A stretch of 55,264 nucleotides of DNA. Origin: Candidatus Competibacter sp. Lineage in GTDB: Bacteria > Pseudomonadota > Gammaproteobacteria > Competibacterales > Competibacteraceae. The notes beneath the pieces are model-generated. The model was not told where the DNA came from. It was given only the letters and a program-made list of their open reading frames with translations, and searched no databases. Shown here one piece after another: positions 33,010-51,675 of the stretch; positions within the stretch are counted from its first letter, which is position 1; each line of letters starts with the position of its first letter. The stretch is from NCBI GenBank assembly GCA_029624815.1, contig JARSSH010000024.1:63142-118405 (forward strand), in the 5' to 3' direction. The translations under genes were made by a program, and so were the position numbers.

Positions 33010-33450
33010 TTAAGGCGTCGGTGGCGGTTCGTTGGTGGCCAGCCAGTACACCCCCAGGCGTGCCACGGTTTCGGCGAATTCGGCGAAATTCACCGGCTTG
33101 CGCACGAAGCTGTTGGCGCCGTTCGCGTAGCTTTGCAGGCGGTCGCGCTCGTCGTCCGAGGAGGTGAGGATCACCACCGGCAGCAGCGCGGTGCGGATAT
33201 CGGCGCGCATGTGTTCCAGCACCTCCAAACCGGACAGGCGCGGCAGGCCGATGTCGAGCACCACCACCGTGGGCAAATCCGGGCCTTCCCGGTTGGCGAA
33301 CGCGCCCGCGCGGAACAGGTAATCCAGCGCCTGCTGGCCGTCCCGCGCCACGTCAATCCGATTGGCCAGGTTGGCGCGGCGCAGAGCGCGCAAGGTCAGC
33401 ATTTCGTCTTGGGGATTGTCTTCCACCAGCAAAATGGTTTTGGTGGTCAT
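33010..33450 (-). CDS. Response regulator, Rcp1-like receiver
   Basis: 146-aa single receiver. LLVEDNPQDEMLTLRAL at the start, phospho-Asp in VVVLDIGLPRLSG, Ser/Thr in VVILTSSDDERD and Lys in SFVRKPVNF are typical of the Rcp1 subgroup that pairs with phytochrome-like kinases. The ATG at 33450 overlaps the kinase stop by four bases (ATGA) and has a GAGG site. It should be phosphorylated by the kinase at 33447-36065; no output domain, so it works through a protein partner. Confidence 0.92.
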   Translation of the reverse strand: MTTKTILLVEDNPQDEMLTLRALRRANLANRIDVARDGQQALDYLFRAGAFANREGPDLPTVVVLDIGLPRLSGLEVLEHMRADIRTALLPVVILTSSDDERDRLQSYANGANSFVRKPVNFAEFAETVARLGVYWLATNEPPPTP

Positions 33451-36065
33451 CCTGTCCTCTCTTCTTCGCTTGGCATCGAATCCGCGGGCGCTTCTGGCAA
33501 TGTAAAACAGAACGTCGCGCCCTTGCCGGGTGCTCCCCACGCTTCGATGACGCCGCCATGCCGATGCACGATGCGTTGCACCGTGGCCAGGCCGATGCCG
33601 ATGCCGGGAAATTCCTCTTGGCGATGCAGACGCTGAAAGGGCTGAAACAGCCGGTTGGCGTAGGCCATGTCGAAGCCGGCGCCGTTGTCGGCCACGCAGA
33701 GGCGGCGCTGGCCGTCGCGGTCCTCGGCGTAGACGCGGATGTGAGCCTTCGCGGCGTGCGCGCTGTATTTCCAGGCGTTGCCGAGCAGATTACGCAGCAC
33801 CACCTGCATCATGCCGGCGTCGCCGCGCGCCCGGAGTCCGGCTTCCACGTCCACCGTCACCCGCCGTTCCGGCTCGCTTTGCGCCAACTCGGCGAGCAGG
33901 AGCTTGGCCAGGGTGGAGAGGTCCACCGCATCGCGACGCAATCCACCGCGCGTGCTGCGCGATAGGGCGAGCAGACCATCGATCAATTCGTTCATTCTGC
34001 GGCTGGCCAGGCCGATTTGTGCCAGGTAGCCCTTGGCCTCGTCTGGCAGGCGATCGCCGTAGTCCTCGGCCAGCGCTTGACCGAACCCGCTCATGGCGCG
34101 CAGCGGCGCGCGCAGATCGTGAGACACGGCATAGGCGAAGCTGTCCAGTTCCCGATTGGCGGCGCTCAGCTCGGCGGTGCGCTCGACCACGCGCCGCTCC
34201 AGGTCGGCGTTGAGGCGGTGGATTTCCTCCTCGGCCTGTTTGTGATCGCTGATGTCCTCGGAAAAAATGACGATGCCGCCCACGCCGCCGTCGCCCGAGT
34301 GCCAGGGCCGCATTTCCCAGCGCAGCCACTGGACGTGGCCGTCCGCCCTGACGAAGCGATCGTCGTCGGCCCGCATCACCTCGCCCGCCAGTCCGCGTTG
34401 ATGCACGGCTTTCAAGTCATCCGAAATCTCCGGGAAGATTTCGTAGTGGAAGCGGCCGATGATGTCCGCGTTACCGAGGGAATAGTCATCCATCCAGCGG
34501 CGGCTGACGACGAGGTAGCGCATCTCGCGGTCGAACATGGCCAGGGCGGCCGGCGCGTGTTCGATGAACAGGTGCAGCCGCTCCTCGCTTTCGCGCAATG
34601 CGGCCGCGGTCTGCTTGCGCGCCTGGATGTCCTCGATGACGGAGATGAAGTAATCGGGAGTGGCGTCCGGCTTCCATACCAAGGAGACGGTGAGGTTGAT
34701 CCAGACGATGCCGCCCTCCTTGCGCCGGTAGCGCTTTTCCATGGAATAGGTCTGGATCTCGCTGGCCAGCATGCGACGCACAAAGTCCAGATCGGCATCC
34801 AGATCGTCTGGATGGGTAATGTCCTGGAAGGTCAGCGCGAGCATTTCCTCCGGGCTGTAGCCGACGATCTGGCACAGCTTGCGGTTGACCCGCAGCCAGC
34901 GACCGTCCGGCGCGACCATGGCGATGCCCATCGCCGCCTGCTCGAACGTGGCCTCGAAGCGTTGCTCGCTCTCGATCGAAGCCGCTTCCGCGACTTTGCG
35001 GCGTCTGATTTCATGGGACAACTTGCGATTCCAGAGCATCAACCCCAGGATGATCGCGGTGAATAGGGCGAATACCTGCCAGAACCGGGTGTAGTTGAAT
35101 CCCTGTTCATAGCGGATGGGCAGCCATTTCCGGTAAATGGCATCGCGTTCGGTTTCGGAAATCGAATCCAGGGTCTTGTCGAGGATGCTGGCCAGGATCG
35201 GCCAGTCCTTGCGCACCGCCATGGATTGAACGTTCACATACGGGGTTTGCCCGACGATCTTGAGCGCCTCCAGCCCCAGTTTGGCCTTGTAATAGTCGAC
35301 GGCCAGCATGGTTTCGATGTAGGCGAAGACCTTGCCCTGTTGGAGCGCTTCCAGTCCGTCCCGCACCGTCTTGACTCGATGCAGGCGGACTTTGGGAAAG
35401 TCGCGCGGTATCCAGTCGTTGACCGCGTAGCCCTCCACGATGGCGACTGTTTTCCCCGCGAGTTCCCGCATGCTGCCGATATACGTGATATCCGGTTGGG
35501 CGACGATGACGACGGGTACTCTCATGTAAGGCTTGGTGAAAGCCCAGAATTCGGTGCGTTCGGGCGTCACGGTCACGGAGGTGGTCATGTCGATGTCCCA
35601 GCGTTTCAGCCGGGCATAGGCTTCCTGCCAGCTCAGGTTCCGCACCCGTTCGAACTTTACGCCCAAGCGCTGTTCGATGAGCTTCAGATAATCCTCGACG
35701 ATGCCGGACGGCTCTCCGCGCTCGTCGGCGAATTCGACCGGTGGCCAACCCGGATCTTGGACCACGCGGATGACGGGATGCGCGCGCAGCCAGGCGCGTT
35801 CGTCTTCGGTCAGGGATGGCGGTCCGAGGCTTGGACTTGGCGTTGCCGGGGCGCGGTCGTCTTGACCGCCCGCCGCCACCGTCGCCAACAGCAGCAAGAG
35901 CAGCACGCCCCGCCGCGGCAGCCGGGTCAACAAGGGTTGCGGCGGTATGCCCCGTCGGCGCTCCGCCGGCGCTGGCGGAGTGGGAATCGCCTCGCTCATG
36001 GAGCGCCCCACTTCGGCGAATGGGTTTGGCCCATCGAGGGAAGGGAGGGGGATGCGCGACTTCAT
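33447..36065 (-). CDS. Sensor histidine kinase with periplasmic amino-acid-binding (SBP_bac_3) domain
   Basis: 872 aa. A hydrophobic stretch near residues 53-66 exports a periplasmic SBP_bac_3 domain (about 80-310: WLRAHPVIRVVQDPGWPPVE, SVTVTPERTEFWAFTKPYM, VAIVEGYAVNDWIP). A membrane helix follows (about 325-343), then two PAS/PAC domains, a phytochrome-like HisKA with YAVSHDLRAPLRAMSGFG and HATPase_c (NAWKYSAH, DNGAGFDM, GIGLATVQRI). It probably senses a small amino-acid-like ligand outside the cell. The start at 36065 or at 35999 (MSEAIPTPP) is undecided; neither has a strong ribosome site. Confidence 0.9.
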   Translation of the reverse strand: MKSRIPLPSLDGPNPFAEVGRSMSEAIPTPPAPAERRRGIPPQPLLTRLPRRGVLLLLLLATVAAGGQDDRAPATPSPSLGPPSLTEDERAWLRAHPVIRVVQDPGWPPVEFADERGEPSGIVEDYLKLIEQRLGVKFERVRNLSWQEAYARLKRWDIDMTTSVTVTPERTEFWAFTKPYMRVPVVIVAQPDITYIGSMRELAGKTVAIVEGYAVNDWIPRDFPKVRLHRVKTVRDGLEALQQGKVFAYIETMLAVDYYKAKLGLEALKIVGQTPYVNVQSMAVRKDWPILASILDKTLDSISETERDAIYRKWLPIRYEQGFNYTRFWQVFALFTAIILGLMLWNRKLSHEIRRRKVAEAASIESEQRFEATFEQAAMGIAMVAPDGRWLRVNRKLCQIVGYSPEEMLALTFQDITHPDDLDADLDFVRRMLASEIQTYSMEKRYRRKEGGIVWINLTVSLVWKPDATPDYFISVIEDIQARKQTAAALRESEERLHLFIEHAPAALAMFDREMRYLVVSRRWMDDYSLGNADIIGRFHYEIFPEISDDLKAVHQRGLAGEVMRADDDRFVRADGHVQWLRWEMRPWHSGDGGVGGIVIFSEDISDHKQAEEEIHRLNADLERRVVERTAELSAANRELDSFAYAVSHDLRAPLRAMSGFGQALAEDYGDRLPDEAKGYLAQIGLASRRMNELIDGLLALSRSTRGGLRRDAVDLSTLAKLLLAELAQSEPERRVTVDVEAGLRARGDAGMMQVVLRNLLGNAWKYSAHAAKAHIRVYAEDRDGQRRLCVADNGAGFDMAYANRLFQPFQRLHRQEEFPGIGIGLATVQRIVHRHGGVIEAWGAPGKGATFCFTLPEAPADSMPSEEERTG

Positions 36066-36984: not shown

Positions 36985-37788
36985 TCAGGAAACGGCGACG
37001 GTTTCGGCCAGGGTTTCGGCCAGCGCCGCCAGCAAGGCCATCAGAGCGGCCGGATCGGGTAGGTACTCGACGGCTTCGGCCGGCGGTTCCGGGCCGATGC
37101 CCAGGGCGATGCCACCCAGGGCGCGCGCCGCCGCCAGCGCCGGCGCGTCGTTGACGGCGTCGCCGGCGTACAGCGCCAGCGCCGGTTCCGCGCCGCCCTG
37201 GGCGACGATGGTCCGCAGCGCCGTGCCTTTATCGTGTGCGATGGCCGGCAGTATTTCGATCGCCAGCGGCCCGTTCAAGACATGCAGGGCGGTGGCGTGC
37301 GGCGCCAGCAAAGCCGTGGTTTCGGCGCACAGCGCTTCGATCCGATTCGACGCCAGTTGCCGGTAGTGGACGGTAAAACCGAACGGTTTCTTTTCCACCC
37401 AGGCGCCGGGATAGGCAGCCAGTCGGGTCTCGATGGCGGCGCTCAGGGGATCGAGCCGGGCGCGGCTGGCCAGCGCCCCGGCGGGAATCCGGCGCTTCCC
37501 GGCCAGTTCCAATTCCAGCCCGGTGGAACCGCCGTAACTCAGTCCGGCCAGACCGACCATGCCGATCAGGTCGTCGAGCCCTCGGCCGCTGACCACGCCG
37601 ACCGTCACTCGGGGAGTTGCCGCCAGCCGAGCCAGGACAGCCCGCGGCGCGGGGTCGAGCACCGCCAGGCGGGGATGCGCGACCAGCGGAGTCAGCGTGC
37701 CATCGTAATCGAAAACCAGAACCAGACGCTGGCCCCGGCGGTGGGCGGCGGTCAGCGTGTCCAGAAGGTCTTGACTGGCGGGAAGCAT
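36985..37788 (-). CDS. otsB: Trehalose-6-phosphate phosphatase
   Basis: 267-aa HAD-superfamily enzyme that removes phosphate from trehalose-6-phosphate. Motif I is VFDYDGTLTPLV (nucleophile and acid Asp), motif II is VGVVSGRGLDDL, and motif IV is LYAGDAVNDAPAL (the Mg-binding Asp pair). The length matches E. coli OtsB (266 aa). The ATG at 37788 shares one base with the otsA stop (TGATG), implying coupled translation and balanced amounts. Trehalose produced here could feed the TreS-GlgE genes 5 kb away. Confidence 0.93.
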   Translation of the reverse strand: MLPASQDLLDTLTAAHRRGQRLVLVFDYDGTLTPLVAHPRLAVLDPAPRAVLARLAATPRVTVGVVSGRGLDDLIGMVGLAGLSYGGSTGLELELAGKRRIPAGALASRARLDPLSAAIETRLAAYPGAWVEKKPFGFTVHYRQLASNRIEALCAETTALLAPHATALHVLNGPLAIEILPAIAHDKGTALRTIVAQGGAEPALALYAGDAVNDAPALAAARALGGIALGIGPEPPAEAVEYLPDPAALMALLAALAETLAETVAVS

Positions 37789-40064
37789 CAGGTTGCTTCC
37801 TGGGTGGATGAAGTGGACGTCGGATCGGCGGTCAGGGTGTCCAGGAAATCGGCGGCCCAACGATAGATATTGTGTTCCTCCACATGCCGCCGCATTTGCG
37901 TCATGCGTTCCCGCCGTTCGTCCGAAGGCATCTCCAATGCCCGCTGGATCGTTTCGGCGAACTGCTCGACGTCGTAGGGGTTGACGATCAGCGCGTCGCT
38001 CAACTCGCGGGCCGCGCCGGTGAATTCCGAAAGGATCAATACCCCGTCCAGGTCGGAGCGGGCCGCCACGAATTCCTTGGCCACCAGGTTCATGCCGTCG
38101 TGCAGCGAGCTGACGATGTTGATCTCGGCCAACCGCATGAAGGCGTGAATGGTGGCCGTGTCCTGGTCGCCGACCAGAAAGCGGATCGGTTTCCAGGCGG
38201 CGGTCTGAAAGCGCCAGTTGATCGTGTCGGCCAGCGATTCCAGCTCGTTGAGGTGGTCCCGATAGCGGCGGAGATAGGTGCGGCTGGGGGTGCTCAACTG
38301 CACCAGGGTGAACTGACCCCGGTAGCGGGGGTAGCGCTCCAGAAAGCGGGCGACGGCGCGGAACCGCTCCGGCAGCCCCTTGGTATAGTCGATCCGGTCG
38401 ATCCCAACCGCGACTCGCACATGATCCAGCGAGTAGCGGTCGCGCAGTTCGTCGATTTGACGGGCCAAATGAATGCCGCTGGGCGTCCGACGCTCGCTCC
38501 AGGGTTGGACGCCGATGGGAAACGGCCGGACCCGCGAAACATGATCGTGCGACTCCACGGTAAACCGGTTCCAATCCAGCCGGGCTTCGATCATCCGATC
38601 GGCGGTATCGAGGAAATTGTTGCAATGCTGCTGGAGGTGGAAACCGATCAGATCCGCGCCGAGCAGACCGCGCAGCAATTCAGCCCGCCATGGGCAGATG
38701 CGGAACGCTTCCGGGTTGGGCCAGGGGATGTGCCAGAACATACCCACCGTCAGATCCGGACGGGCGTCCTTTAACAGGCGCGGCGCCAGCGCCAGGTGGT
38801 AATCCTGCACCAGCACCACTGCTGGATCGGCGCCGACCTCTTCCAGGGCGATCGCGGCGAAGCGCTGGTTAGCGCGCAGGTAGTGTTCCCAATTGCTGGC
38901 CCGGAATACCGGCCGTTCGTGCGCCAGATGGCAGAGCGGCCACAGTCCTTCGTTGGCGAAGCCATGGTAATAACCGTGCTCCTCTTCCCGGCTCAGCCAC
39001 ACCCGCCGCAGGGTATAGGCGGGATCGTCCGGCGGCACCGCCAGTCGGCCCCGCTCGTCGGCGGTCATGCGGTCGGCGTTGCCGGCGCCATGGGCGATCC
39101 ACACGCCGCCGCTGGCCCGCAGCACCGGATCGAGAGCGGTGACCAGTCCGCCGGCGGGGGTGCGGAGGCGGGTTTTGCCGTCCTGCAATTCGTGCAGGTA
39201 GGGCTCCCGGTTGCTGAGCACCAGCAGACGGCGACCGCGCAGGCGATCGATCATATAGGCGTGCAGCCGCTCACGGGTCCAGATCTGGCCGGTTTGCGCC
39301 ACCGCCCGCGCTTGCGCCCGCTGCGCCGAACGCGCGGTCCGCAGCGAGTCGGCCAGCCGGCCGTTCTCGTTGGCCAACCGCGCGGCCGGCGGTTCGAGCG
39401 GCGGCGGTTCGGCATCGTCGCCGCCGCGCAGTTGCCGCATCCATTCCATCATCCGCTTGAGCGGGCGGTCGTACAGCAGCCAGGCGCCCGCCACCACCAG
39501 GGTCAGCAGCAGCAGGGTGACGACGCCCACCCAGAACCCGAATCGAACCCGCCGGCTGACGACGAGCTTGTCCACCTGGGACATATCCTGGACCACCACC
39601 AGCACGCCTTGCGGTTGACCGTCCGGCGCGCGGATCGCCGAGGCGAGGATATAGACGCGGCCCTGGTCGGTGCGGATGGATTCGATGATGTCTTTCTGTT
39701 CCTTGAGCGCTCGGGCAACGACTTTATTGAGGTCGGCGGCGAATTCCTGCACGTCCTTGCCGGCGGCGAGCAGGCGGCCATCCGGCCGATAGACCGCCAA
39801 TCCGATCAGCGGCGGGTAACCTTCCAGGCTGGAACTGAGCGCCGCCGCCGCCTCGCGATCCGGCAGTTGCAGCGCGGCCTGGACCGAATAGACCATCTGA
39901 TGGGAAAGCACGTAGGCACGCCGGTCCATTTCTTCCAGGTCGGCCGCGCGTTCCCGTTCGACCTGTAACCAGGCCAGGACGCCCATCAACAGGCCGACCA
40001 GCCCGGCGACCAGCAAGCCCATCCGCAGCGAGTTGGGCAGGCGGTATTGGGTGTTCGTTGGCAT
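37788..40064 (-). CDS. otsA: Trehalose-6-phosphate synthase with N-terminal membrane sensor-like region
   Basis: 758 aa against about 470 for E. coli OtsA. Residues 14-35 and about 173-198 are membrane helices enclosing a ~135-residue extracytoplasmic domain, followed by a HAMP-like linker ([15 protein letters not shown]) and an Ala/Arg-rich helix. The GT20 catalytic domain starts near residue 280 with [14 protein letters not shown] and includes [61 protein letters not shown] and [20 protein letters not shown]. It makes trehalose-6-phosphate from a nucleotide-glucose and glucose-6-phosphate. The layout suggests that synthesis is tied to the membrane and perhaps to an outside signal such as osmotic strength. 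Confidence 0.9.
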
Positions 40065-40123
40065 GAAGATTTCTCGGACAGGATTCCGCCAACGAGGGAC
40101 GGATTCGGCTCGTGGGGGTTCGC

Positions 40124-41281
40124 TCAGGCCAGCAGCCGGCGCAGAATATCCTGGTAGATCCGGCTGAGTCGTTCCAAATCGGCGACGGGCAGCCGCTCGT
40201 CGATCTGGTGGATGGTGGCGTTGGATGGCCCGAGTTCGATCACCTGCGCGCCGGTGGGGGCGATGAAGCGCCCATCGGAGGTGCCGCCGGCGGTGGACAG
40301 TTCCGGCTCCAGGCCGGTTTCGGCGCGGATCGCGGCGGCGGCGGCGGCCACCAGTTCGCCGGGCGGCGTAAAGAACGGCGAGCCCGACAGGCTCCAGTTC
40401 AGCTCATACTGGAACACTTGGCCAGTCTTGACTTCCTCGTTCAACAGGCCAGTTTCGACGATCAGGCGGGTGCGTTCCTCAAGCTGCTCGACGGTGACCG
40501 CCGGCGAAAAGCGGAAATTGAACAACAGCTCCAGATCGCCGGGCACGACATTGACCGCGCCGGCGCCGGCATGCAGGTTGGAAATCTGCAAGGAGGTCGG
40601 CGGAAAGCACTCATGACCCCGATCCCAGATTTCGTCCGCCAGCGCCCCGAGAATCGGCCCGATCGCGTGGATCGGGTTCTGGGCCAGGTGAGGGTAGGCG
40701 ACATGGCCCTGCCTGCCGCGCAGCCGCAGTCGGCCGTTCAGCGAGCCACGCCGGCCGTTTTTGATCGTATCGCCCAGTTGGGTCGAACTGGACGGTTCGC
40801 CCACCAGGCACCAGCGGATTTTCTCGCCGCGCGCCTCCAGCCGCTCCACCACCTTGACCGTGCCGTCCACCGCCGCGCCTTCTTCGTCGCTGGTGACGAG
40901 AAAGGCGATGGAGCCGCGCGGGCGCGGGCAGGCGGCGAGGAAGCGCTCGCAGGCGGTGACCATCGCCGCCAGGCTGCTTTTCATGTCGGCCGCGCCGCGC
41001 CCGTACAGCCAGTCCTCGCGGATTTGCGGAGCGAACGGCGGCGATTGCCACTGATCCAGCGGGCCGGGCGGCACCACGTCGGTGTGGCCGGCAAAGGCGA
41101 ACAGCGGCCCGTCGTCGCCATGCCGCGCCCAGAAGTTGTCCACCTGGCCGCGGCGCAGCCGCTCCACTCGGAAGCCGAGCGCCGTCAGCCGGGCGATCAT
41201 GACCTCCTGGCAGCCGGCGTCCTCGGGGGTAATCGAGGGCCGGCGGATCAGGTCGAGGGCGAGGTCCAGGGTGGAGGGCAT
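40124..41281 (-). CDS. dapE: Succinyl-diaminopimelate desuccinylase
   Basis: 385-aa zinc peptidase-family enzyme (M20) that cleaves N-succinyl-LL-diaminopimelate to succinate and LL-DAP on the way to lysine and peptidoglycan. Metal-binding motifs: [13 protein letters not shown] (His, then Asp), [14 protein letters not shown] (Asp), TSDEEG (catalytic and metal Glu) and GTSDGRFI; substrate region [10 protein letters not shown]. Length matches E. coli DapE (375 aa). It lies 306 bp from dapD in the same direction and 59 bp before otsA. Confidence 0.95.
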
Positions 41282-41587
41282 GGTCGGAAGGGTTCGAGGT
41301 CGGTCGGGAAACGGCGATTCATGTTTCGAAGTCTATCTTACTCCGGCGAAAAGTCGGAAGCGCCATGGGCGGTCCAGCGTTTGTGGCCGGTTCGACTCAG
41401 CGCGGTCGGTCGCGCTGCTTGGGAGAAGTCCGAATGGTTCCGGGCGTACCGTTGGGCGACGAAAGCCGTTAATTTTTTGAATTGGGTCGGTGCGATGAAG
41501 CGCGGCGCGGCTGGGTCTTCGCGGCATCAACCCAGCCCGCCAATCTCAGAAAGCCGATTTCAGAAAAGCCGGTCGGGAAACGGCCTG
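41282..41587. other. dapD-dapE gap with a 15-bp direct repeat
   Basis: 306 bp without a supported gene. The 15-mer CGGTCGGGAAACGGC occurs at 41301-41315 and again at 41570-41584, just after the dapD stop, bracketing about 254 bp. Short frames inside have no recognisable features. The gap may be a scar of an inserted or lost segment; many Gammaproteobacteria have an arsC-like gene between dapD and dapE. Confidence 0.5.
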
Positions 41588-42406
41588 TCAGTCGCGCAAC
41601 AATTCGTTCAGACTGACCCGACCACGCGTTTTCTCGTCCACCTGCTTGATGATGATCGCGCAGTACAGGCTATGGCTGCCATCGGGCGCGGGCAGGGCGC
41701 CGGACACCACCACCGATCCGGCCGGTATCCGACCGTAGCCGATCTCGCCGGTGAGCCGGTTGTAGATCTTGGTGCTTTGGCCGATGTAGACCCCCATCGA
41801 AATGACCGAACCGCGTTCGACGATCACGCCCTCGACCACTTCGGAACGCGCACCGATGAAACAATCGTCCTCGATGATGGTGGGGCTGGATTGCAGCGGC
41901 TCCAGTACGCCGCCGATGCCGACCCCGCCGGATAGGTGGACGTTTTTGCCGATCTGGGCGCAGGAACCGACCGTGGACCAGGTATCCACCATGGTTCCGG
42001 AGTCCACATACGCGCCGATGTTGACGTAGGACGGCATCAGCACCACGCCGGGCGCGATGTAGGAGCCGCGGCGGGCGGCGGCCGGCGGCACCACCCGCAC
42101 GCCGGCGGCCAGAAAATCGTTTTCGCCGTATTCGGCGTACTTGGGCGCTACCTTGTCGAAATAATTCGTGTAACCGTCGCGGATGATGGCGCTGTCGTTC
42201 AGGCGGAAACTGAGCAGCACCGCCTTTTTCAGCCAGGCGTTGACCGTCCAGGCGCCGTTGCGCGGTTCGGCGACCCGCGCCCGACCCAGCTCCAGCAGCC
42301 CCAGCGCTTCCTCGACCGCCTCGCGCAAATCGGTCGACGCGGTGGCGGCGTCGATCTCGCCGCGACGCTCGAAAGCATCATCGATAATCCGCTGTATTTT
42401 ATTCAT
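41588..42406 (-). CDS. dapD: Tetrahydrodipicolinate N-succinyltransferase
   Basis: 272 aa (E. coli DapD 274). It transfers succinyl from succinyl-CoA to tetrahydrodipicolinate in lysine/DAP synthesis. The C-terminal two thirds is a left-handed beta-helix of hexapeptide repeats ([32 protein letters not shown]), with the substrate region [23 protein letters not shown] lies ten bases before the ATG at 42406, which gives the usual N-terminus [13 protein letters not shown]. Divergent from glgE. Confidence 0.96.
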
Positions 42407-42648
42407 CGGGGAACATCCTCGGCAGGGCGGCATCCCAACAGCGAGTTTGGGCACAGCCGCAAAAACCGTCATAATAGGAAGGAATAAAACAGACAAGGAT
42501 GATGGATCGCCGCACGGACGACCCGTATCCGGGCGGCAACTTTATCACCTTACGTTTCCGAACGGCAGCATGTCGGCCACCGCCAGGCGCGGGGTATCGG
42601 CGCGCGCTGCCGATACCCGTACAAGCACAGCGAAAGAGGATCATCGGT

Positions 42649-44856
42649 ATGGCAAAGAAGGGCTCGGATGACAAAAAGTGGGCGCCGGTCAAGCCGACTT
42701 CCCCCACCGACCGGCACCCAGCCGCGCCGGCCGAACCTGAACCGACCCCAGCAGTCGGCAAGGTCCAGCCGGCGGTCGCCAAGCCAACCTCACCCGTTGC
42801 CGAGAACAAGATCGCGGTGGTCGAGGCGAATCCAGCGCGGGATTCCAGCTCGCAAACGCTGGAGACCGACGGCCGCATGCGGGTGATCATCGAAGGGGTG
42901 AGCCCGGAAGTCGATGCGGGCCGGTTTTCCATCAAGCGGGTGGTGGGCGAAACCGTGGTGGTGGAGGCCGATGTTTTCACCGATGGCCACGACTCCTTGT
43001 CTTGCGTGTTGCAATACCGCCGGCAAGGCGAGATCGAATGGCGGGAAGCGCCGATGCTCCCTCTGGTCAACGACCGCTGGCGGGGTGAGTTTCAGGTGCT
43101 GGAAATAGGGCTTTTCGAGTACACCCTTTGCGCCTGGGTGGACGCCTTCAAGTCCTGGCGGCACGATCTGCCCCGCTGGGAACAGGCCGAGGACATCGCT
43201 CTTTCCCTGCGGGTCGGCGCGGAACTGACGGAGAAGGCCAGCCAGCGCGCGACCGGCGCGGACGCTCAGTGGTTGGCCAAGCGCGCCGCGGCGCTGGCCG
43301 GCGATCAGGATCTGGACTATCGCCGCCAGTTGGGCCTGGACGATGAACTGGCCAGGCTGATGCATCGTCACGCCGACCGCCAGTTGGCGATCCAGTACGA
43401 AAAGATCCTGGGATTGATGGCTGAAGACGAACGCGCCCGCTTCAGCACCTGGTACGAGCTGTTCCCGCGTTCCAGCGGTTCCGCGCCCGGCAAGCACGGC
43501 ACTTTCAGGGATTGCGAAACCTGGTTGCCCCGGCTCGCCGCCATGGGTTTCGACGTGCTGTACTTCCCACCGATTCATCCCATCGGCCGGGTCAATCGCA
43601 AGGGCAAGAACAACACGCTCACGCCCGGACCGGACGATGTCGGCAGCCCTTGGGCCATCGGCGCCGAGGAAGGCGGCCACAAGGACATTTTGCCGGCGCT
43701 CGGCACGCTGGGGGATTTTCACCATCTGGTGCGCAAGGCCCGGGAGCACGGCATCGAGATCGCCCTGGACATCGCCCTGCAATGCGCGCCGGACCATCCT
43801 TACGTCAAGCGACATCCGGACTGGTTCCGCTGGCGGCCGGACGGTACGGTGCAGTACGCCGAAAATCCGCCCAAGAAGTATCAGGATATCTATCCGTTCA
43901 ACTTCGAAACCGGCGACTGGAAGGCGCTGTGGGAGGAGATCAAGAGCATTTTCGAGTTCTGGGTCGCGCAAGGCGTGCGCATCTTCCGGGTGGACAACCC
44001 GCACACCAAACCCTTCGCGATGTGGGAGTGGCTGATCGCCGAGATCAAGAAGACCACGCCGAACGCCATTTTTCTGGCCGAGGCTTTCACCCGGCCCAAG
44101 GTGATGCACCGTCTGGCCAAGCTGGGCTACACCCAGTCCTACACTTACTACGCGTGGCGCAACACCAAATGGGAGCTGATCGAGTATCTGACCGAACTGA
44201 CCCAGGGACCGGGCCGCGACTACTTCCGGCCGAACTTCTGGCCCAACACCCCGGATATCCTGACCGCCGCCCTGCAGTACGGCGGCCGTCCGATGTTCAT
44301 GTCCCGGCTGGTGCTGGCGGCGACCATGACCGCCAACTACGGCATTTACGGCCCGGCCTTCGAAATGATGGAGCACCTCGCCGTCAAGCCGGGTAGCGAG
44401 GAGTATCTGGATTCGGAGAAATACCAGATCCGCTATCGCGGCTTCCAGGAATTGGACGGGCCGAACAGCCTGCGCGACTTCATCGCCCTGGTAAACCGCA
44501 TCCGCAAGCGCAACCCGGCGCTGCAAGCCGACCGGAGCCTGCGGTTCCACGAGGTCGATAACGAGCAGATCGTCTGCTACAGCAAAACCACGGATAAGCA
44601 CGCCAACACCGTTCTGGTGTTGGTGAACCTGGATCCCAACTATACCCAGTCCGGTTGGACCGGTCTGGATCTGGCGGCGCTGGGCGTGGATCCGAACCAG
44701 CCTTACCAGGTGCACGATCTGCTGACCGGCGCTCATTACATCTGGAACGGACCGCGCAACTACGTCGAGCTGAACCCGCACCGTATGCCGGCGCATGTGT
44801 TCCGCGTCCGCAGCAGCCTGCAGACGGAACACGATTTCGATACGTTCAGCGGTTGA
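42649..44856 (+). CDS. glgE: Alpha-1,4-glucan:maltose-1-phosphate maltosyltransferase
   Basis: 735-aa GH13_3 enzyme that lengthens alpha-1,4-glucan using maltose-1-phosphate. After a ~70-residue Pro/Ala-rich, probably disordered leader comes the GlgE N-terminal domain (MRVIIEGVSPEVDAGRF, DUF3416), then the barrel with FDVLYFPPIHPIGRVNRKGK, the nucleophile Asp in RIFRVDNPHTKPFAMWEW, the acid Glu in AIFLAEAFTRPKVMHRL and YGIYGPAFEMMEH. The ATG at 42649 has GAGG 11 bases upstream; earlier starts would add an unlikely leader. It is first in the glgE - treS/mak - glgC - glgX run, and the substrate comes from the next gene. Confidence 0.95.
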   Translation: MAKKGSDDKKWAPVKPTSPTDRHPAAPAEPEPTPAVGKVQPAVAKPTSPVAENKIAVVEANPARDSSSQTLETDGRMRVIIEGVSPEVDAGRFSIKRVVGETVVVEADVFTDGHDSLSCVLQYRRQGEIEWREAPMLPLVNDRWRGEFQVLEIGLFEYTLCAWVDAFKSWRHDLPRWEQAEDIALSLRVGAELTEKASQRATGADAQWLAKRAAALAGDQDLDYRRQLGLDDELARLMHRHADRQLAIQYEKILGLMAEDERARFSTWYELFPRSSGSAPGKHGTFRDCETWLPRLAAMGFDVLYFPPIHPIGRVNRKGKNNTLTPGPDDVGSPWAIGAEEGGHKDILPALGTLGDFHHLVRKAREHGIEIALDIALQCAPDHPYVKRHPDWFRWRPDGTVQYAENPPKKYQDIYPFNFETGDWKALWEEIKSIFEFWVAQGVRIFRVDNPHTKPFAMWEWLIAEIKKTTPNAIFLAEAFTRPKVMHRLAKLGYTQSYTYYAWRNTKWELIEYLTELTQGPGRDYFRPNFWPNTPDILTAALQYGGRPMFMSRLVLAATMTANYGIYGPAFEMMEHLAVKPGSEEYLDSEKYQIRYRGFQELDGPNSLRDFIALVNRIRKRNPALQADRSLRFHEVDNEQIVCYSKTTDKHANTVLVLVNLDPNYTQSGWTGLDLAALGVDPNQPYQVHDLLTGAHYIWNGPRNYVELNPHRMPAHVFRVRSSLQTEHDFDTFSG

Positions 44857-44869
44857 GGAGAAGACATAG

Positions 44870-47800
44870 ATGGTTCAAAAATCGAAGGGCTGGAGCGGTG
44901 TTGAAGATCCATTATGGTACAAGGATGCGCTGATTTATCAGTTGCACGTCAAGGCCTTTGGCGATAGCGACAACGACGGGATCGGCGATTTCCGCGGCTT
45001 GGTCCAGCGCCTGGATTATCTCCAGGATCTGGGTGTGGATACGTTGTGGCTGCTGCCGTTCTACCCCTCGCCAATGCGGGACGACGGCTACGACATTTCC
45101 GATTACCAGAACGTTCATCCCCAGTATGGCACCCTGGCCGATTTCCGCGCCTTCGTCCGCGAGGCGCACGCGCGGGGTCTGAAGATCGTCACCGAGTTGG
45201 TCATCAACCATACCTCCGACCAGCATCCCTGGTTTCAGGCCGCGCGCCGCGCCCCGCGCGGTTCGCCGGAGCGGAATTTCTACGTCTGGAACGACGACGA
45301 CGATAAATTTCCGGAAACCCGCATCATCTTCACCGATACCGAGACCTCCAACTGGGCTTGGGATCCGGTGGCGGAACAATACTATTGGCACCGCTTCTTT
45401 TCGCACCAGCCGGATTTGAACCATAACAATCCGGCGGTGGTGAAAGCCGTGACCAAGATCATGCGATTCTGGCTGGACCAGGGCGTGGACGGGTTGCGGT
45501 TGGACGCCATCCCTTATCTGTGCGTGCGCGAGGGCACCTACAACGAAAACCTGCCGGAAACCCATGCGGTGATCAAGCAGATGCGAGCGGTGGTGGATCG
45601 CCACTACCGCAGTCGCATGTTTCTGGCCGAGGCCAATCAATGGCCGGAGGACGTGCGCGATTACTTCGGCGACGGCGACGAGTGCCAAATGGCCTATCAC
45701 TTTCCGTTGATGCCGCGCATGTACATGGCCGTCGCCCAGGAGGATCGTTATCCCATCGTCGAAATCCTCGAACAGACCCCGGACATTCCCGACAACTGCC
45801 AGTGGGCGATTTTCCTGCGCAACCACGACGAACTGACGCTGGAGATGGTCACCGACCGGGAGCGGGACTACATGTACCGCACCTATGCGGCCGATCCGCG
45901 CAGTCGGGTCAACGTCGGCATCCGCCGCCGGCTGGCCCCGCTGATGGACAACGATTACAGCAAGATCAAGCTGATGAACAGCCTGCTGCTGTCGATGCCG
46001 GGCACGCCCATCGTGTACTACGGCGACGAAATCGGCATGGGCGACAATTTTTATCTGGGCGACCGCAACGGGGTGCGCACCCCGATGCAGTGGAGCCCCG
46101 ATCGCAACGCCGGTTTCTCCAAGGCCGACCCCCAGCGCTTGTACCTGCCGCCGATCATGGACCCGATCTACGGTTACGAAGCGGTCAACGTGGAAGCGCA
46201 GCATCGCGCGCCGGCCTCGCTGTTGAACTGGATGAAGCGGATGATCGCCGTGCGCCGGACCTGCCAGGCCTTCGGCCGCGGCCGGCTGGAGATGCTGCGG
46301 CCCGGCAACCGCAAGATTCTGGCCTACGTCCGCGCTCACGCCGACGAGGTGGTGCTATGCGTGGCCAATCTGTCGCGCTCCGCCCAGCCGGTGGAGCTCG
46401 ATCTGAGCAAATACAAGGGCATGGTGCCGATGGAAATGCTGGGCCAGAACCCGTTCCCGCCGATCGGCGAATTGCCCTATCTGTTGACCCTGCCCCGCTA
46501 CGGGGTCTACTGGTTCCGGCTGAGCTACGCCGCGCCGCCGGTCTGGCACGAAGACCGGCTGCCCGGTGGCGACCTGCGGATTCTGGTGCTGTTCCAGGGC
46601 TGGAAGAGCTTCTTCGTCGATCAGGTCGAGCCCAGTCGGCGGGAAATGGCCATGAACCTGCACGAACGGCTGACCCGGCAGGTGCTGCCGGAGTTCCTGC
46701 CCACCCAGCGCTGGTTCGCCGGCAAGAGCGGGCGCATCGAATCGGTCGAATTCGACAACTACGACGTCTGGGTCGATCAGACCGAATGGGTGCTGGCCCG
46801 AATTCGGGTCTGGCTGGCCGAGCGGCCCGAGCCGCAGGATTACGGTTTGCCGATGGCGCTGGCCTGGGAGGACGACGGCGAGGAGAAACTGCGCCCGCTG
46901 TGGCCCTATGCCTTGGCGCGCGTCCGGGTTCGCGCCCGGATAGGCCTGCTGTACGATGCCTACGCCAATGAGAAATTCACCCAGTCGATGCTGAAGATGA
47001 TGGCGCGCAATACCCGGATACCGCTGGGTGGGGGGTGGCTGAAATTCTCTTCGACCCGTATCTTCCATAGCCTGGCCGGCGACCTGCCGGAGATGCTGCC
47101 GGTCAAGCGGCTGGCGCTGGACAGCAGCAATACCACGCTCAATGTCGGCAACCGGATGCTGCTCAAGGGCTATCGACGGTTGCGGCCCGGCATCAATCCC
47201 GAGTTGGAGATGGGTCGATTCCTGACCGACGTCGCCGACTTCGGCAACGCCGCGCCGTTGGCCGGCGCCCTGGAGTACGAAGACAAAGACGGCCACGTCA
47301 TCGCGTTGGCGATGCTGCAGGGCTTTGTCGGCAACCAGGGCGACGCCTGGACCTACACCCAGGATTACCTGAAACGGTTCCTGGACGATTGCGTGCAGCA
47401 ACCGGAAACGGTGCGGGAAGTCGGCGATGGCGTGCATGCGCTCTATCTGTTATTCGCCACGACCCTGGGCCGGCGCACGGGCGAATTGCATCGGGCGCTG
47501 GCCCTGATCACCGGCGATTCCGCCTTCGACCCCGAACCGATCGCGCCGACCGATCTGAGCGGCTGGGTCGAGCAGATTCGGCGGGAGGCGACCACCACGC
47601 TGGAACAATTGGAGCAGGCGCAGTGGCGGCTGGCGGAGCCGGCGCGCTCCCTGGCCGGCTGTTTGCTGGCCGCGCGCGAGACCATGATGGCCCGGCTGGA
47701 CCAACTGGAGATCGCGGACTCGCTGCCGACGAAGACCCGTTTCCACGGCGATTACCATCTCGGCCAAGTGCTGGTGGCCAAGGACGATGTCGTCATCATC

Positions 47801-48208
47801 GATTTCGAGGGCGAGCCGTCGCGGTCAATGGAAGAACGGCGCCACAAGAATTCGCCCTTGCGGGATGTGGTCGGCATGTTGCGCTCGCTCAATTACGCCG
47901 CGCACGCCGCCTTGCGGCAGACCACCGCCGACGGCACCACCAACCGGGAAGAACTGGCATCCTACGTCGGCGATTGGGAACGGCTGGCCCGGGCCGCTTT
48001 CCTGGAGGCTTACACCGAAGTCGTGCGGGATTGTCCGAGCTATCCGGCCGATCCCGAGCAGGCCAAAGCCTTGCTGGATCTGTTTACGCTGGAGAAAGCC
48101 TGCTACGAACTGCGTTACGAATTGGATAACCGCCCCGACTGGATTGCCATCCCACTCGGGGGTTTGTGCGAACTACTCTCACTAGAAACGAAGGATGTGC
48201 CGCGATGA
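44870..48208 (+). CDS. treS: Trehalose synthase-maltokinase fusion (TreS-Mak/Pep2)
   Basis: 1,112 aa. Residues 1-545 are TreS (GH13_16), which interconverts trehalose and maltose: FGDSDNDGIGDFRGLVQRLD, nucleophile in GLRLDAIPYL, acid Glu in MFLAEANQWPEDV and the LRNHDELTLEMV motif. Residues about 600-1110 are a maltokinase (LPTQRWFAGKSG at the start, FHGDYHLGQVL and VIIDFEGEPSRSMEER as kinase catalytic and metal sites), which phosphorylates maltose with ATP to maltose-1-phosphate for GlgE. The fusion is known in several bacteria and channels trehalose into glucan. It starts 13 bp after glgE, and its stop overlaps glgC. Confidence 0.96.
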   Translation: MVQKSKGWSGVEDPLWYKDALIYQLHVKAFGDSDNDGIGDFRGLVQRLDYLQDLGVDTLWLLPFYPSPMRDDGYDISDYQNVHPQYGTLADFRAFVREAHARGLKIVTELVINHTSDQHPWFQAARRAPRGSPERNFYVWNDDDDKFPETRIIFTDTETSNWAWDPVAEQYYWHRFFSHQPDLNHNNPAVVKAVTKIMRFWLDQGVDGLRLDAIPYLCVREGTYNENLPETHAVIKQMRAVVDRHYRSRMFLAEANQWPEDVRDYFGDGDECQMAYHFPLMPRMYMAVAQEDRYPIVEILEQTPDIPDNCQWAIFLRNHDELTLEMVTDRERDYMYRTYAADPRSRVNVGIRRRLAPLMDNDYSKIKLMNSLLLSMPGTPIVYYGDEIGMGDNFYLGDRNGVRTPMQWSPDRNAGFSKADPQRLYLPPIMDPIYGYEAVNVEAQHRAPASLLNWMKRMIAVRRTCQAFGRGRLEMLRPGNRKILAYVRAHADEVVLCVANLSRSAQPVELDLSKYKGMVPMEMLGQNPFPPIGELPYLLTLPRYGVYWFRLSYAAPPVWHEDRLPGGDLRILVLFQGWKSFFVDQVEPSRREMAMNLHERLTRQVLPEFLPTQRWFAGKSGRIESVEFDNYDVWVDQTEWVLARIRVWLAERPEPQDYGLPMALAWEDDGEEKLRPLWPYALARVRVRARIGLLYDAYANEKFTQSMLKMMARNTRIPLGGGWLKFSSTRIFHSLAGDLPEMLPVKRLALDSSNTTLNVGNRMLLKGYRRLRPGINPELEMGRFLTDVADFGNAAPLAGALEYEDKDGHVIALAMLQGFVGNQGDAWTYTQDYLKRFLDDCVQQPETVREVGDGVHALYLLFATTLGRRTGELHRALALITGDSAFDPEPIAPTDLSGWVEQIRREATTTLEQLEQAQWRLAEPARSLAGCLLAARETMMARLDQLEIADSLPTKTRFHGDYHLGQVLVAKDDVVIIDFEGEPSRSMEERRHKNSPLRDVVGMLRSLNYAAHAALRQTTADGTTNREELASYVGDWERLARAAFLEAYTEVVRDCPSYPADPEQAKALLDLFTLEKACYELRYELDNRPDWIAIPLGGLCELLSLETKDVPR

Positions 48209-49437
48209 AACAACCGAAAATCCTGGCTTTTGTCATGGCGGGCGGCGAAGGCGCCCGCCTGAGTCCCCTGACGGCCTACAATTCCAAGCCGTCGCTGCCG
48301 TTCGGCAGCCGCTACCGCATCGTGGATTTCGTGTTGAGCAATCTGCTCAATTCGGGCATTCAGTCGATCTACATGCTGGTGCAGTACAAATCCCAGTCGC
48401 TGATCGAGCACGTCCGCAAGGCGTGGGTGGTGTCGCCGATGCGGAACGAGGAGTTCGTGACGGTGGTGCCGCCGCAGATGATGCGCGGCGGCGACTGGTT
48501 CCAGGGCACCGCCGACGCCGTGTATCAAAATCTTAATCTGATTCAATTGCACAATCCCGATCTGGTGGTGGTGTTCGGCGCTGATCATGTGTACCGCATG
48601 GACCTTCAGCAGATGGTGGATTTCCACCTCGAACGGGAGGCCGACGCGACCGTCGCCGCCTTGCCGGTGCCGATCGCCGAGGCCAGTTCGTTCGGTGTCA
48701 TCCACGCCGATCACGCCGGTCGGGTCAGCGACTTCCAGGAGAAGCCGGCCAACCCGCCGCCCATGCCCTCCGATCCCACCCGCTCCTATGCCTCGATGGG
48801 CAACTATCTGTTCGATACCAAGGTGTTGGTGCAGGCCCTCAAGGAAGCCAACGAGCGTGGCGAACACGATTTCGGCCACCATGTATTGCCGAAGCTGAAG
48901 GATACCCATCGGGTGTTCGCCTACGACTTCGCCACCAACAAGGTGCCGGGAACCAAGCCCTACGAGGAGCAAGCCTATTGGCGCGATGTCGGCACGCGGG
49001 ACGCTTATTTCAACGCCCATCAGGATCTGCTGGGCGAGAAGCCGCGTTTCGATATGTTCAACCCGCAATGGCGGATCTTTTCCAGTAACTATCAAGGGCC
49101 GGTGGCGCGTCTACTCGATGCCAGGGTCAAGAATAGTGTGGTGGCCGCCGGTTCGATGGTGCGGCAGGCCACCATCACCAACACCATCATCCGCCGCGAA
49201 GTCATTATCGAGGACGATGTGGAGATCGAGGATTGCCTGATTCAGGAGTACGTCCACATCAAGCGCGGCGCCCGACTGCGGCGCGCCATCATCGGTGGTT
49301 ACAATGTGATCGAGGCCGGCACTCGGATCGGCTACGATCTCGAACAGGATCGCAAGCTCTACCAAGTGACCCAGGGCGGCATTACGGTGGTTGGGCCGCG
49401 CGAGGTTACCGCGACCATGCAAGCGTTTAGCGAATGA
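48205..49437 (+). CDS. glgC: Glucose-1-phosphate adenylyltransferase
   Basis: 410 aa. It makes ADP-glucose, the committed step of bacterial glycogen synthesis. N-terminal nucleotidyltransferase: VMAGGEGARLSPLTAYNSKP, SRYRIVDFVLSNLLNSGI, QGTADAVYQN, VVVFGADHVYRMD and FQEKP; the C-terminal beta-helix domain begins near residue 300. The ATG at 48205 overlaps the treS stop (ATGA), giving the usual start and implying coupling. ADP-glucose may also feed OtsA or a glycogen synthase not in the window. Confidence 0.96.
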   Translation: MKQPKILAFVMAGGEGARLSPLTAYNSKPSLPFGSRYRIVDFVLSNLLNSGIQSIYMLVQYKSQSLIEHVRKAWVVSPMRNEEFVTVVPPQMMRGGDWFQGTADAVYQNLNLIQLHNPDLVVVFGADHVYRMDLQQMVDFHLEREADATVAALPVPIAEASSFGVIHADHAGRVSDFQEKPANPPPMPSDPTRSYASMGNYLFDTKVLVQALKEANERGEHDFGHHVLPKLKDTHRVFAYDFATNKVPGTKPYEEQAYWRDVGTRDAYFNAHQDLLGEKPRFDMFNPQWRIFSSNYQGPVARLLDARVKNSVVAAGSMVRQATITNTIIRREVIIEDDVEIEDCLIQEYVHIKRGARLRRAIIGGYNVIEAGTRIGYDLEQDRKLYQVTQGGITVVGPREVTATMQAFSE

Positions 49438-49524
49438 GGGCAGGGGGTGGGGTTCGGGGTTCGGGCTTTTGTCCGTCTCCCGTCGCCTGCCCCCTATTCC
49501 TTGTCCCCTTACGGATTGGAGCCG

Positions 49525-51675
<2,151 letters not shown>

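Follow-up and report, generated by a model that had tools for sequence, protein, structure and literature searches.

A receptor-like, membrane-tethered trehalose-6-phosphate synthase predicted in Candidatus Competibacter

We analysed a 55,264-nucleotide stretch of DNA from Candidatus Competibacter sp. (contig JARSSH010000024.1; hereafter, the window) and describe one of its genes, a single open reading frame of 758 codons with an ATG start on the minus strand (37788-40064). The product appears to be a receptor-like, membrane-tethered trehalose-6-phosphate synthase of 758 amino acids (aa) that belongs to a deep clade of the GT20 family. A receptor-type N-terminus is joined to a GT20 enzyme, as the initial annotation of the sequence had proposed. 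The catalytic positions of the enzyme are kept. Coordinates are those of the window, with the gene read on its minus strand, and residue numbers refer to this protein unless stated.

Architecture of the protein

The chain opens with a transmembrane (TM) helix, TM1 (residues ~11-33; 39966..40034, minus strand as for all parts of the gene), located by hydropathy and AlphaFold, which begins a long helix (11-65) entering the extracytoplasmic domain (~34-172; 39549..39965). TM2 (~173-197; 39474..39548) leads into a HAMP-like segment and helical linker (198-261; 39282..39473), which comprises AS1 (198-214), a connector and AS2 (230-247). The GT20 trehalose-6-phosphate synthase domain covers residues 279-745 (37830..39230). 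Pfam PF00982 matches there with 414.6 bits against a gathering cut-off of 32.5 (E 6.9e-124), and solved trehalose-6-phosphate synthases (1uqt, 5jij and others) match along the full length of the domain. Hydropathy, AlphaFold2 and the Pfam GT20 match thus agree with the order given earlier from the letters of the sequence, i.e., helix, outside domain, helix, HAMP-like linker and OtsA.

Exactly two TM windows precede GT20 by hydropathy (15-33 and 179-197). Since at least two such windows also arose in 175 of 2000 shuffles of this segment that kept its composition, the placement shared across the family is stronger evidence than hydropathy alone; exactly two windows are found in 28/28 aligned members of the PDC type, this protein included. 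For the whole protein (23-row alignment) AlphaFold2 gave a mean predicted local distance difference test score (pLDDT) of 82 and a predicted template modelling score (pTM) of 0.63. The model runs from helix 11-65 through an alpha/beta domain (69-160), helix 162-212 and a weak helix (227-255) to the enzyme. We infer the membrane orientation of the receptor protein and also its dimerisation. A frame fusion or an assembly artefact was ruled out, as the architecture recurs in independent genomes.

Sensor fold and HAMP-like segment

Modelled alone (residues 34-176, 28 rows), the sensor reached pLDDT 91.6 and pTM 0.85 in AlphaFold2. Its predicted order is a long helix, a short helix, two strands, a helix, three strands and an exit helix running into TM2. 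A Foldseek search with this model placed WalK, KinD and CitA in the first rows. VIA-align superposed the sensor on WalK with Z 15.0 (132 residues aligned, 2.7 A) and also matched DcuS (Z 13.2), CitA (12.3), DctB (11.6) and PhoQ (10.1); in WalK, DcuS, CitA and PhoQ the matched part is the extracytoplasmic domain of a histidine kinase. The outside domain is predicted to be a single Cache/PDC fold, which settles on the model the earlier question of Cache or dCache. The dCache reading was ruled out, with only one PDC module in the predicted structure.

By sequence, Pfam finds dCache_1 in 13 of the 28 members and SMP_2 in 14 (E <= 0.1), and Cache_WalK matches five (best E 4.9e-7). Searched by sequence against solved structures, the N-terminus produced chance matches only (best E 0.67), and among other receptors of the same genome the sensor found one weak match (E 0.0066, residues 164-260). 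The pattern of the HAMP-like segment is shared widely, with P201 in 27, R213 in 26 and E233 in all of the 28 members, and Pfam HAMP itself matches four of them at E <= 0.1 (best 5.3e-4).

Distribution and phylogeny

The fusion occurs well beyond this genome. Among 37 genomes of the family, its own included and several of them incomplete metagenome-assembled genomes (MAGs), 14 carry the PDC type (3 in fragments), 6 a type with a cysteine pair, 1 a classical OtsA only, and 16 have no match; a congener that is 97% complete (G001) lacks a match to the protein at E <= 0.001. The class sample (369 genomes) contains 45 genomes with a match at E <= 1e-60. A receptor-type profile scores 755-1298 bits in 14 of these genomes (15 genes) and at most 404.5 bits in all other matches. 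Of 249 genomes in the phylum sample, 58 match, 11 of them at 713 bits or more and the rest at no more than 342.3; the Competibacter genome itself is part of both samples. A pattern search over 84,980 species, one genome per species, returned 26 loci, some of which are fragments or soluble forms; it relies on peptides in common and does not amount to a census. The full-length layout was found by this search in Elusimicrobia and Patescibacteria-type MAGs at 38-43% identity.

Cysteine-type proteins have two TM windows in 14/14 loci (L015-L020, L063-L065, L068, L069, L086-L088). All of them carry C84 and C103 (L064 numbering), 19 residues apart, in the outside domain, and their N-terminus is homologous to that of the PDC type (hhalign probability 99.2, E 1.7e-19). 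A cysteine pair outside the membrane suggests a possible disulphide or redox role. A third type, with one TM window, comes from one genus of the phylum (L089-L095), with two of the seven loci marginal by hydropathy (1.66 and 1.71). We regard this genus as a natural sensor deletion, and it is probably alphaproteobacterial, judging from a gene of about 605 codons on an Aminobacter plasmid. No split-off sensor gene was seen upstream in the three of the seven loci that were examined (L118-L120). The frame upstream of these loci seems to encode an enzyme of the debranching type, and one is annotated in the same place at the Aminobacter plasmid gene. No TM window precedes GT20 in any of 24 classical OtsA rows or of 4 sensor-less rows of the clade. 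Of 12 plasmid records retrieved with tblastn, ten are haloarchaeal; their similarity starts only at residue 274-280, and they were left out of the tree.

In the catalytic-domain tree of 77 rows, 53 rows, soluble ones included, group apart from classical OtsA at 100/99. The two soluble Roizman/Levy rows, which are long-branched, separate first, and the other 51 join at 99/96. Gemmata contributes soluble rows that fall with the PDC rows of gammaproteobacteria (89/72). The PDC rows of Elusimicrobia and Patescibacteria sit in a group with the cysteine-type and one-TM rows (94/81) and not with the gammaproteobacterial PDC rows. One-TM rows form a group at 100/100 and, with six cysteine-type rows, at 100/99, i.e., they are nested among the cysteine type. 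Thus, the PDC type is not one clade on this tree, as the label needs three changes there. In a simple account, the membrane sensor would have been gained once, early on, altered later, and lost in Gemmata and the one-TM genus.

Three titles disagree with placement in the tree or genus. The protein of L031, titled Phycisphaerales, falls in the genus of the window, and L040 and L041, titled Acidobacteria MAGs, group with gammaproteobacteria. These are likely mislabelled MAGs or cases of transfer.

Catalytic domain and product

R557, K562, R595, D656, E664, D421, Y366 and W375 are present in 23/23 members, R286 in 22 and H445 in 21; we take the checked positions to be catalytic or substrate-contact residues of OtsA. 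The Competibacter protein keeps every one of them except 325 (39090-39092), which is His for Trp. Position 325 is His in 26/28 PDC-type and 14/14 cysteine-type proteins and Tyr in 7/7 of the one-TM type, whereas classical OtsA has Trp in 21/24. The clade also differs from classical OtsA by an [E/Q]-P-Y-x-H motif after the first conserved Arg. The NCBIfam OtsA model (TIGR02400) scores 437.1 bits, below its cut-off of 564.85, and the model of the bifunctional synthase/phosphatase 493 bits, below 634. Trehalose-6-phosphate is the likely product, and its synthesis by this protein is backed by homology and the adjacent OtsB.

Conservation and selection

Conservation was computed over 22 gammaproteobacterial-type rows, two of them from MAGs labelled Acidobacteria (17 of the rows for GT20). 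Mean column identity is 0.71 in AS1, 0.66 in AS2, 0.41 in the connector, 0.31 in the mid-sensor (102-148) and 0.74 in GT20. Between residues 99 and 148 no position reaches 86% identity. A relay that is kept beneath a variable input side would suit a receptor.

Nonsynonymous to synonymous rate ratios (dN/dS) were taken from three congeners, two at 88% and one at 75% identity. They are 0.29, 0.22 and 0.15 for the extracytoplasmic part and 0.15, 0.15 and 0.11 for GT20. Purifying selection acts on the N-terminal part.

Gene neighbourhood

The gene for OtsB, the trehalose-6-phosphate phosphatase (36985..37788, minus strand, 267 aa, Pfam Trehalose_PPase), follows directly, and its start codon ATG shares bases with the stop of otsA (TGATG). 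On the plus strand lie the genes for GlgE, a maltose-1-phosphate maltosyltransferase (42499..44856); TreS (44870..48208), whose long C-terminal part we read as a maltokinase, with the Pfam match confined to the amylase-type part; a nucleotidyltransferase that is probably GlgC-like (48166..49437); and a presumed GlgB-like branching enzyme with CBM48 and alpha-amylase domains (49447..51675). From 36985 to 51675 the genes form a compact trehalose/alpha-glucan cluster of two divergent sets, otsA-otsB on the minus strand and glgE/treS-mak/glgC-like/glgB-like on the plus strand. Putative dapE and dapD, named from the reading of the frames, stand between the sets. Ca. Competibacter are glycogen-accumulating wastewater bacteria, and the cluster sits in this glycogen-accumulating lineage. 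A histidine kinase with SBP_bac_3 and PAS domains (33447-36065) and a response regulator beside it (33010-33540) are found near the trehalose genes.

A trehalose-phosphatase-like gene, weak in one case (L118, 7.7e-8), was found in the flank examined at 32 of 44 loci. In this count L037 and L105 are the same gene, and some flanks end at contig ends. The phosphatase HMM was built from 24 of these matches and the gene of the window, and Pfam Trehalose_PPase is present in 10/10 phosphatase genes scanned, the latter included. The remaining 12 loci, among them all 4 sensor-less ones, have no phosphatase gene in the flank. A second GT20 gene was not found in this genome. As TreY and GlgA are present in it as well, otsA-otsB is one of several trehalose/glucan routes.

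Proposed mechanism

We consider it fairly probable that the protein is a receptor enzyme setting the output of trehalose-6-phosphate; this view is drawn from sequence comparison and models. The PDC domain, held between two membrane helices, would change conformation, and the change would pass via TM2, the HAMP-like two-helix segment and the helical linker to the cytoplasmic GT20 domain. The enzyme would make trehalose-6-phosphate from UDP-glucose and glucose-6-phosphate, and the coupled OtsB would take off the phosphate. Trehalose may then serve as a protectant and/or feed the neighbouring glucan route of the TreS-Mak/GlgE/GlgB type. Direct control of the synthase by an outside cue is, we infer, the best-supported mechanism, and catalytic activity, an effect of the sensor on output and the nature of the cue are presumed in it. 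Osmolarity as the cue is a guess; no result singles it out.

Several observations weigh against this proposal. All of its support comes from sequence and prediction. Cache models of Pfam stay below threshold on the protein (dCache_1 26.1 against 45 bits, CHASE8 21.1 against 27), and Pfam HAMP (PF00672) has no match in it at E <= 5, so that the segment is named HAMP-like by pattern only. Parts of the linker (211-230 and 250-258) are below pLDDT 50, and hence no coupling geometry is predicted. The central sensor (102-148) is weakly conserved even within gammaproteobacterial-type members. Cache ligands are usually bound at this place, and with the mid-sensor so poorly conserved no shared ligand is evident. 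The dN/dS of 198-261 (0.35, 0.44 and 0.38) is the highest of five regions in each comparison; thus, recent evolution shows no special constraint on the relay region taken as a whole. Finally, the one-TM type has a single TM window and no sensor in 7/7 loci, and some members of the GT20 clade have no TM helix. Hence, sensing is not essential to the enzyme.

Alternative explanations

One form of the receptor proposal, possible although we would not favour it, is that the domain reports the state of the envelope (membrane tension, redox, pH or metal) and not a small ligand, with a disulphide between the two invariant cysteines as the switch in the cysteine-type clade. The best fold match is WalK, a cell-envelope regulator; C84 and C103 are invariant, and their type is homologous to the PDC type. 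A double Cache domain has been reported for the osmosensing kinase Sln1 (Upadhyay et al. 2016, PMC4822843). However, with 0 Cys in its sensor (residues 34-172) the Competibacter protein cannot use a disulphide switch, which was ruled out for it, and no result here points to a signal.

The main rival to a receptor enzyme is a plain anchor and dimerisation scaffold, in which the PDC domain no longer senses; the N-terminus would hold the synthase at the inner membrane (near OtsB, an exporter or the glucan-making enzymes) and pair the enzymes. The sensor-less one-TM genus nested among cysteine-type rows speaks for it, as do the poor conservation of the mid-sensor and the high dN/dS of 198-261 among close relatives. 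Nevertheless, we regard an anchor as rather unlikely. A bare anchor needs no two TM helices, PDC fold and HAMP-like relay. Over the 22 gammaproteobacterial-type rows the conservation of the HAMP-like helices comes close to that of the enzyme, and the sensor with these helices is kept far off, in a Patescibacteria MAG aligned over residues 7-744 at 38% identity.

That the enzyme makes another product, e.g., another glucosyl phosphate, is improbable. In its favour are the two missed NCBIfam cut-offs, His or Tyr at position 325 in place of the mostly Trp of classical OtsA, and the 12 loci with no phosphatase gene nearby. On the other hand, all or nearly all members retain the remaining classical positions that were checked, 32/44 loci have a trehalose-phosphatase gene overlapping the synthase or near it, the score with the model for glucosylglycerol-phosphate synthase is lower (305 bits), and the genes for TreS and GlgE lie close by.

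It is very improbable that translation begins mainly inside the gene, near residue 270, and yields a soluble enzyme as the main product; the initial annotation had named this as the finding that would overturn its reading. Codon 271 is ATG, but Met271 is common to 3/23 members and any Met at 262-283 occurs in 4/23, ATG-271 has no evident Shine-Dalgarno sequence (a weak test, since ATG-1 likewise has no strong one), and the upstream part is under purifying selection at the protein level and is also conserved in MAGs attributed to different phyla.

Relation to known systems

The protein shares with classical OtsA the full-length catalytic domain, the conserved catalytic positions and the OtsB partner. 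It differs in the TM windows before GT20, in its separate clade and in the clade's own motif and residue 325. In WalK, DcuS, CitA and PhoQ a PDC/Cache domain is likewise flanked by two TM helices, and the folds agree at Z 10-15. However, the output of these proteins is a kinase and that of the Competibacter protein an enzyme making a sugar phosphate, with sensor identity of 13-17%. Bacterial transmembrane receptors normally work through kinases, second messengers or chemotaxis.

Cache-containing cyclases, cyclic di-GMP (c-di-GMP) enzymes and chemoreceptors similarly have the Cache domain outside and an enzyme or adaptor inside, and the available part of PMC4822843 names kinases, cyclases, c-di-GMP enzymes, chemotaxis transducers, 'etc.' as Cache outputs. 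The word 'trehalose' is absent from its main text. Candidate parts of the GlgE-type route TreS-Mak-GlgE-GlgB adjoin in the window, and the same route is described for Defluviicoccus in PMC9041414. The accessible portion of that paper gives galU-otsA-otsB from one genome only and does not mention a membrane-bound OtsA. Two OtsA proteins of R. etli are discussed in PMC3518184, where 'transmembrane' occurs 0 times in the portion available.

The genome of Competibacter is reportedly the subject of a paper by McIlroy et al. in 2014. Among the matches listed in our literature search, titles and abstract openings describe no membrane-receptor OtsA, in a search that leaves subscription literature mostly uncovered and so does not establish absence in print.

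Significance

In lineages that include Ca. Competibacter, other proteobacteria and Patescibacteria MAGs, a receptor front end appears to be joined directly to the first enzyme of trehalose synthesis. We tentatively suggest, at somewhat less than even confidence, a hitherto undescribed class of transmembrane Cache receptors with synthesis of a metabolite, trehalose-6-phosphate, as output. In this class, control of trehalose and glucan synthesis by the envelope would be post-translational, and an ancient enzyme clade would carry interchangeable inputs (PDC-HAMP-like, cysteine-pair PDC or none). The idea of control is directly testable, because the clade offers natural versions with a full, an altered and no sensor. 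If the sensor controls the enzyme, an outside cue would set trehalose in one step, without gene regulation, and trehalose is a stress protectant and a possible precursor of glucan through TreS-Mak-GlgE.

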